Source of the DNA: an uncultured Saprospiraceae bacterium
GTDB lineage: Bacteria; Bacteroidota; Bacteroidia; Chitinophagales; Saprospiraceae
Reading direction: 5' to 3'
DNA: 64,000 nt
NCBI GenBank assembly: GCA_937921775.1
Contig: CAKZUK010000033.1
Span: forward strand, 62,001-126,000
Part shown: piece after piece, positions 17,680 to 32,778 of the stretch
Layout: each line of letters opens with the position of its first letter
How positions within the stretch are numbered: the first letter of the stretch is position 1
Translations under genes and position numbers: made by a program
Notes under the pieces: model-generated
Told to the model about the DNA's origin: nothing
The model's input: the letters and a program-made list of their open reading frames with translations, nothing else
Database searches by the model: none

Positions 17680-18336
17680 TTGTCCTTCTGCGGCTTTTCC
17701 AAGGAAGTTAAAAAAGTAATATTAATGTATCATCTTCTTTCAAAATGTTATCCACTTGTTTTATTTGTTGGATTTTTTTTATTGTTATCAGCTTGTGAAG
17801 ATCCGATTTATATTCCTAAGCCTAGAGCCTACCCTAAAGTTGTTTATCCGGAACGCTCTTACCAATCATTTACTGAAGACTATTGTAGTTTTACGTTTGA
17901 GTATCCAAAATATACCATCATTGAACAGGATACTTTATTTTTTGGTGAAAAGCCTGACAATGCGTGTTGGTTTGATTTATATACCAAATCATTAAATGCT
18001 AAAATCTATTGTAGTTATGTACCTATCGATAAAAATAATTCCTTTGAAAAACTTCGTGATGATGCCTTTTTAATGGCGGATGAGCATATTGTAAAAGCAA
18101 ATTACATTGATCGTATTCCTATTCAAAACAAGAATGGTGTTTCCGGTTTTGCTTTTAATCTAGAAGGGCCAGTTGCCTCTCCTTTTATGTTTTATTTGAC
18201 GGACAGTACGGATCATTTTTTGCGTGCTTCCCTCTATTTTAATTCGAGAGCAGAGCCTGATTCTTTAGCGCCAGTTGTCAAATTTGTGAAGGATGATATT
18301 CTACATATGATCCAGACTTTTGAATGGAATGATTAA
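17680..18336 (+). CDS. gldD: Gliding motility lipoprotein GldD
   Basis: Lipobox LLSACEDP; PIYIPKPRAYPKVVYPERSYQSF...CSFTFEYPKY; directly follows gldE. Confidence 0.9.
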   Translation: MSFCGFSKEVKKVILMYHLLSKCYPLVLFVGFFLLLSACEDPIYIPKPRAYPKVVYPERSYQSFTEDYCSFTFEYPKYTIIEQDTLFFGEKPDNACWFDLYTKSLNAKIYCSYVPIDKNNSFEKLRDDAFLMADEHIVKANYIDRIPIQNKNGVSGFAFNLEGPVASPFMFYLTDSTDHFLRASLYFNSRAEPDSLAPVVKFVKDDILHMIQTFEWND

Positions 18337-18590
18337 ATTTTTTATGGGGATTGGAACGCAGATCTAACATATTGGAGGAGAGTTAGGAGGAATTTTTTCT
18401 TTTATTGTGCCCCAGTAATTAACTTAGCTTATGCTAAGCTTTCGCTAAGGATATGACTTACATGTGGCTTGGTCGTAACTTAATTAATTTCAGCTTGATG
18501 CGATCTAAGCATTTAGCTTCAACTAAGCACAGTCGGCGAACTCAGGTTGATTGTACTTGATAGGTCTAAGTTGGGGATTCATGTCTCACA

Positions 18591-18630
18591 AACAAAAAGC
18601 CATCCGGAGTTAACCGAACAGCTTTTTGTT
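18591..18630. terminator. Stem-loop between gldD and recA
   Basis: 10-bp perfect arms AACAAAAAGC / GCTTTTTGTT with internal CGG/CCG pairing. Confidence 0.7.
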
Positions 18631-18632
18631 TT

Positions 18633-18758
18633 ATAAGTTTGGTTCTTTGACAAATTCCGTGGTAGAACCCAATGTTAAAATAAAATCAACGTTTCCTTCG
18701 GTCACTTTTGCTTTCATTTTAACATTGGCCACGGGATTTGTCAAAGAACGATAAGTTT
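18633..18758. mobile_element. MITE-like inverted-repeat element with 8-bp flanking duplication
   Basis: Arms GGTTCTTTGACAAATTCCGTGG (18641) and CCACGGGATTTGTCAAAGAACG (ends 18750), inner arms CCAATGTTAAAAT / ATTTTAACATTGG, flanked by direct repeat ATAAGTTT at 18633-18640 and 18751-18758. Confidence 0.85.
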
Positions 18759-18788: not shown

Positions 18789-19901
18789 TTAAGATACACC
18801 ATTTTCGCTAGGCTCAGTAACACCTTTCTTTGCTTTTTTTGTCTTTGTAGTTTCAGCTACAGGAGCATCATCAGCTTCAGGTTCTTCAGGAGCCTCTGCA
18901 CCGTTTTCAACAAAGTCTTTAATTTTTGCTTCTATTTCTAGAGCAACTTCAGGGTTGTCAGCAAGAAATTGCTTCGCTGCTTCACGTCCTTGGGCAATCT
19001 TACCGCCGTTGTATGCATACCATGAACCACTCTTCTCGATTATGTCATGGTCAACACCCATGTCTACAATCTCACCAGTTTTAGAAATACCTTCACCATA
19101 CATAATGTCAAACATAGCGATTCTGAAAGGAGCAGCTAATTTGTTCTTAACTATTTTTACTTTCACGTGGTTACCAACTACATTTCCTTCTTTGTCCTTG
19201 ATGGCAGAACCACTTTTTCTAATGTCGATACGCACTGATGCATAAAATTTAAGTGCATTACCACCAGTCGTAGTTTCAGGGTTACCGAACATCACACCAA
19301 TCTTTTCACGTAACTGATTGATGAATACACAGCAGCAGCCAGTACGACCAATTGCTCCGGTAAGTTTACGCATTGCTTGAGACATCAAACGCGCTTGGAG
19401 GCCCATTTTAGAGTCACCCATTTCTCCTTCTATTTCAGCTCTTGGAACCAATGCTGCTACAGAGTCAATGACAATAATATCGATAGCACCAGAACGGATT
19501 AAATTTTCAGCGATTTCAAGCGCTTGCTCACCGTTGTCTGGTTGAGAGATCAAAAGATTTTCAACGTCTACACCAAGCTTTTCAGCATAGAAACGGTCAA
19601 ATGCATGTTCCGCATCAATGAAAGCAGCGATACCGCCAGCTTTTTGACATTCTGCGATAGCATGAATAGCAAGAGTTGTTTTTCCAGAAGATTCAGGGCC
19701 GTAGATTTCAACTACTCTACCTTTAGGTAGGCCATTGATACCAAGCGCTAAATCAATACTTAGAGAACCAGTTGGAATAGTATCTATTTCTACTACTTGC
19801 TTTTCACCCAACTTCATGACAACACCTTTGCCATATGTTTTTTCAAGACGGTCTACCGTCATTTTCAAGGCTTTTAATTTAGCGTCCTTCTCTTTTGACA
19901 T
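18789..19901 (-). CDS. recA: Recombinase RecA
   Basis: [23 protein letters not shown] Walker [36 protein letters not shown]. Confidence 0.98.
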
Positions 19902-32727: not shown

Positions 32728-32778
32728 TGTTCTATTTTTTTTCTGGCAAAATGTTTATGGTTCTTTGACAAAGTTTTT

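Follow-up and report, generated by a model that had tools for sequence, protein, structure and literature searches.

The 110-bp near-perfect fold-back at positions 18641-18750 of the window (the whole 64,000-nucleotide stretch of DNA that we analysed) most probably represents a non-autonomous MITE that occurs about 40 times in the genome and would be moved in trans by an ISL3-family transposase of the L102/L181/L182 subclade; we give this reading a probability of roughly 0.9. That the element has been mobile is plain: its copies are dispersed, they are bordered by 8-bp duplications, and syntenic loci exist without it. The sequence-only reading of the same DNA had arrived at a non-autonomous ISL3-like MITE, and the copies, the duplications, the match of the ends to ISL3 elements and the empty syntenic loci now support it.

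As listed in Table 1, the fold-back carries the octamer ATAAGTTT on both sides; the inverted-arm segment and the octamer repeats described earlier are thus real. The claim of an identical sequence at both ends had to be amended, because the left end GGTTCTTTGACAAATTCCGTGG and the right end CGTTCTTTGACAAATCCCGTGG (read inwards) are mismatched at base 1, an asymmetry present in most copies. The RNA fold of the element reached -49.9 kcal/mol (z = -9.3) and was equalled by none of 200 shuffles. The flanking genes encode GldD (+ strand, stop at 18336; PF25593) and RecA (- strand, stop at 18789; PF00154), whose strands make them convergent neighbours of the element, in agreement with the setting given by the sequence-only reading. 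A second, separate hairpin is located at 18590-18631, beyond the element as seen from recA. As the window copy differs from the family consensus at 2 positions only, it belongs to the younger copies. The right end also contains a sigma-70-like site on the - strand (18744-18716: TTGACA, a spacing of 17 nt and a TG-extended TAAAAT; 11/12), which points from recA towards gldD; promoters of Bacteroidota are commonly unlike the sigma-70 type, and the site may have no meaning.

Table 1. Features of the element, its surroundings and related elements (positions refer to the window)
Feature	Position	Strand	Basis
MITE copy, 110 bp, no ORF	18641..18750	+	about 40 genome copies, 81-100% identity; 2 differences vs. 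family consensus
8-bp target duplication, left copy ATAAGTTT	18633..18640	.	sequence and flank comparison of copies
8-bp target duplication, right copy ATAAGTTT	18751..18758	.	sequence and flank comparison of copies
Left terminal inverted repeat GGTTCTTTGACAAATTCCGTGG, putative transposase-binding end	18641..18662	+	family end shares 19-20/22 with termini of complete ISL3 elements L102, L181
Right terminal inverted repeat CGTTCTTTGACAAATCCCGTGG, read inwards	18729..18750	-	CG start in common with both ends of ISL3 element L171/L182
Inner fold-back arm CCAATGTTAAAATAAAATCAA	18669..18689	+	fold; pairing mostly kept among copies
Inner fold-back arm, pairs with 18669-18689	18708..18728	-	fold
Solitary match to element end, possible relic	32759..32772	+	exact 14 nt; 0 expected (shuffles)
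MITEs of other genera with the same end			L146 443 bp, L158 144 bp, L130 199 bp, L152 64 bp, L139 110 bp

In the draft genome to which the window belongs (G000; 6.28 Mb, 259 contigs, 92.7% complete), we found the dispersed copies to comprise 38 near-full-length ones plus fragments, and their number and dispersal exclude a chance origin. In 30 of the 38 near-full-length copies, the flanks form direct repeats that agree at 7 or all 8 positions. The flanking octamers are exact at a length of 8 in 18/38 copies, exact at lengths of 5, 6 and 7 in 2 copies each, and at 9 or more in none; 29 of 30 octamers are distinct. For comparison, left and right flanks taken from different copies reached 7-8/8 in 2.9% of cases, and in a shifted register no more than 3 copies did so. 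The target consensus of the copies is TTA(N8)TAA and is AT-rich. The family thus combines terminal inverted repeats, many dispersed copies and differing target duplications with a short sequence devoid of a transposase gene (110 bp; longest stop-to-stop frame of 36 codons, found in the sister-species copies). The sequence-only reading had predicted many copies with different 8-bp flanks and had named a single copy as grounds for abandoning the MITE; the copies and their distinct octamers agree with the prediction and contradict the single-copy case. A repeat that is dispersed, palindromic and mostly intergenic could also be a REP/BIME-type palindrome mobilised by a RAYT (Y1 HUH) transposase, yet HUH single-strand transposition would not be expected to leave the exact 8-bp duplications seen at most copies, and the length and ends fit a DDE-type IS. 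We consider this origin extremely improbable.

Mobility was also visible in the sister species, for which the sole other genome of the genus in the comparison (G001, 71% complete) was used. This genome carries at least 16 copies of the element, at places other than in G000. For six G000 copies the joined flanks were queried against G001. Downstream of uvrB, the joined flanks were continuous in G001 without the element, with 81% identity across the whole joined stretch, and the same was seen at the L008 locus (78% identity); loci empty of the element, as anticipated in the sequence-only reading, therefore exist in the sister species for other copies. The exact pre-insertion octamer is hidden at these empty loci because the intergenic spacers are too diverged, and at the L007 locus the alignment was too diverged for placing the insertion site. 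At recA-gldD, where the sequence-only reading would look for an empty site, the assembly of G001 ends within recA and only part of gldD is matched.

The very stable fold and the position between convergent genes could suggest that the resemblance to a MITE is superficial and that the hairpin has a conserved function at recA, for example in terminating transcription from both sides, in stabilising the mRNA or as a small RNA. Such a role is hard to reconcile with about 40 copies at unrelated places with target duplications. The gene context of the 38 copies was co-directional for 14 + 8, divergent for 9, convergent for only 4 and inside a predicted frame for 3, as judged from crude gene calls; being mostly intergenic and in all orientations, the copies show no preference for gene ends. 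Furthermore, base pairs that changed among the copies were mostly broken (133, vs. 40 kept via a one-sided change and 30 changed on both sides), the site already possesses the separate hairpin, and Rfam matches were sub-threshold only, mostly to eukaryotic microRNA hairpins, which indicates a generic long stem. The predominance of broken pairs is as expected if the copies decay neutrally and form a few subfamilies. A simple scan detected no terminator at the element site, and we see no sign of a conserved job of the element at recA. We rejected the functional hairpin because the copies are dispersed through the genome, and regard it as very unlikely.

The preferred reading, a MITE of the ISL3 type, is well supported by comparison of the ends. 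The 22-bp family end GGTTCTTTGACAAATNCCGTGG agrees at 19-20/22 positions with the termini of complete 1.26-kb ISL3-family IS from other Saprospiraceae. These termini read GGTTCTTTGACAAATTTAGTGG at the start and finish of L102/L180, GGTTCTTAGACAAATCTCGTGG at both boundaries of L181 and CGTTCTTTGACAAATAGTGTGG at both boundaries of L182/L171, while the end of a Flammeovirgaceae element (L186) is GGTTCTTTGACAAAAAGTGTGG; terminal inverted repeats GGTTCTTTGACAAATnnnGTGG are common to the MITE and the ISL3 elements of the L102/L181/L182 subclade. The full 22-bp motif, the AAAT...GTGG part included, stands at both boundaries of complete ISL3 elements with several related transposases. The transposases of L102, L163 and L164 passed the curated cut-off of NF033550, and that of L102 also passed the cut-off of PF01610. 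In L103, L163 and L164, with an identity to L102 of about 40%, the inner end differs (GGTTCTTTGACAATTTTTGCAAA), so the MITE fits one ISL3 subclade (L102/L181/L182) and not ISL3 in general; Saprospiraceae ISL3 elements at large have ends GGTTCTTTGACAA or GG[CT]TCT, several of them with perfect 8-bp duplications. Similarity between IS and MITE is confined to the 22-bp ends and the core has no match: the ISL3 elements of Saprospiraceae and other Bacteroidota (L102/L180, L181, L182, L186; L103, L163, L164) are 1.26-1.28 kb long with a transposase gene of about 400 codons, and the ends are all that the MITE has in common with them. Complete ISL3 elements with matching ends, as the sequence-only reading had predicted, hence occur in the same bacterial family, and the ends of L102, L181 and L182 contradict the case that it had set against itself, namely that no IS with matching ends exists.

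Duplications of 8 bp were found at ISL3 elements as well: L164 has a 7/8 match, and the more distant L125, L122, L162, L165 and L110 have 8/8. Among the best-matching complete IS (L180, L181, L182 and L186), a clear 8-bp duplication was not seen in the flanks present in the assemblies. Element L165 (G340:C221), at 1,709 bp and with a 542-codon transposase, is longer than the others; it has the duplication ACTATTGA (8/8) and ends GGTTCTTCGTCACTTTTGG.

The element thus shares with ISL3-mobilised elements the ends and the 8-bp duplication; a transposase in the same draft genome was not found. Neither PF01610 nor a profile built from five sequences of the subclade detected, at E values up to 10, any ISL3 transposase or remnant in the incomplete drafts G000 and G001, so the mobilising IS must be lost, unassembled or external. 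Among 149 genomes of the family, an ISL3 transposase was detected in 22; the end-rich genomes G089, G227, G250 and G210 likewise have none. Inspection of the reading frames by single, partnerless ends in relatives (L135, L149, L150, L156, L157 and others) also identified no recognisable transposase gene. Fragmentation affects most of the end-rich assemblies, and many of these are MAGs, a type of assembly that often lacks multi-copy IS; even L102 forms a contig of its own, of 1295 bp. For these reasons the absence from the own genome is weak evidence, yet it stands as the one prediction that was not borne out.

This absence is compatible with movement by another family that duplicates 8 bp (for example IS6, IS1595 or IS256), the ISL3-like end then being coincidental; IS6 ends, which are of the GGTTCTGTTGCAAA type, have about 11/14 bases in common with the element end. 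Against this, the full 22-bp motif lies at both boundaries of complete Saprospiraceae ISL3 elements with several related transposases. MITE-type ends also occur beside such ISL3 elements or fragments: genome G382 has 17 of them together with the ISL3 element L171, and G031 has 15 plus a 3' fragment of an L181-like ISL3 ending in GGTTCTTAGACAAATCTCGTGG. Our searches, which were aimed at ISL3, did not bring up these ends on an IS from any other family. We therefore judge a mover from another family unlikely.

For the ISL3-type MITE, we propose that a DDE transposase of the ISL3 family, supplied in trans, would bind the 22-bp ends, and that an 8-bp staggered cut at TTA(N8)TAA would result in insertion of the element and duplication of the octamer. 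The element itself consists of the ends and the self-complementary core only. In the window, it landed between the recA stop codon and the pre-existing hairpin at 18590-18631 and, since that hairpin lies beyond the element, the latter is probably located within the recA 3' untranslated RNA.

The same end is widespread among relatives. A 21-nt end, GGTTCTTTGACAAATNCCGTG, with at most 1 mismatch was present in 49/396 Saprospiraceae genomes and 29/113 genera, with reversed-pattern controls giving 0 in every listed case. Elements bounded by it measure 64, 82, 105, 110, 111, 122, 126, 132, 134, 144, 146, 199 and 443 bp among others; their cores differ, and 8-bp duplications accompany most of them. 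The MITEs L146, L158, L130, L152 and L139 resemble the window MITE in the end and the 8-bp duplications, but differ in length and core and sit in other genera. The longest of these, L146 (G227:C40), is non-coding; its 21-nt MITE-type ends are perfect, and the octamer ATATTGTT is duplicated at its flanks. As the core of the window element has nothing obvious in common with the interior of the IS, these elements would share the ends alone and would not have arisen by simple deletion from a single IS. Tentatively, and at somewhat below even odds, the end of about 22 bp (GGTTCTTTGACAAATNCCGTGG), common to MITEs with unrelated cores in at least 29 genera, most of whose genomes have no detectable matching transposase, might constitute a pool of parasitic ends spread through the whole family: visiting ISL3 elements would set them in motion time and again, and the hairpin would afterwards shrink step by step (110 to 51, 44 and 19 bp) until it is erased, leaving the target duplication behind.

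ISL3-type MITEs as a kind are already known. Microcystis aeruginosa PCC 7806 carries a 187-bp ISL3-type MITE, a gene-less stem-loop with more than 30 mostly intergenic copies, whose ends GGCTCTTCG match ISL3 ends and whose direct repeats are 8 nt (PMC11448079, doi 10.1186/s12864-024-10839-5). The window element resembles it in all these points: it has no gene, folds back on itself, exceeds 30 mostly intergenic copies, and combines ends of the ISL3 type with repeats of 8 nt. The Microcystis MITE is, however, cyanobacterial and differs in length and core, while the window element comes from Bacteroidota; the ISL3 partner of the Microcystis MITE resides in the same genome, whereas none was found in G000; and the matching end spans 9 nt, vs. 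19-20/22 in the window element. In the open literature searched we found no Saprospiraceae MITEs with ISL3-type ends, and the family in the window appears to be new. With it, an abundant, little-studied group of environmental Bacteroidota gains a MITE family whose autonomous relatives are identified, and a recurrent hairpin that might be annotated as a regulatory RNA or terminator is explained. The end shared across genera and the deletion derivatives that keep the duplication may offer material for studying the origin and decay of bacterial MITEs.

Such shortened forms with the duplication kept occur in the genome of the window and are 51 bp (L072, 8/8) and 44 bp long (L041/L210, 8/8; L052/L212, 7/8). 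In addition, we observed 19-bp palindromes that correspond to two fused element ends: GGTTCTTTGACAAAGAACA in L038 (1501-1519) and CGTTCTTTGACAAAGAACC in L073 (1035-1053), both with 7/8 flanks, and a third in L076 (963-981) with 5/8. The two examples with 7/8 flanks suggest that the 19-bp forms are probable end points of hairpin collapse; alternatively, they may represent an unrelated GTTCTTTGNCAAAGAAC operator. An end pair in L074 has no duplication. The 14-nt match to the element end that the sequence-only reading placed at 32759 is genuine and beyond chance expectation; neither a partner end nor an octamer repeat was found nearby. The 44-bp form L212 lies on a 41.6-kb contig (G000:C170), of which 3,016 bp are 100% identical to L209 (G174:C22), although the two genomes are assigned to different genera; this points to misbinning in one of the assemblies or to a very recent transfer.
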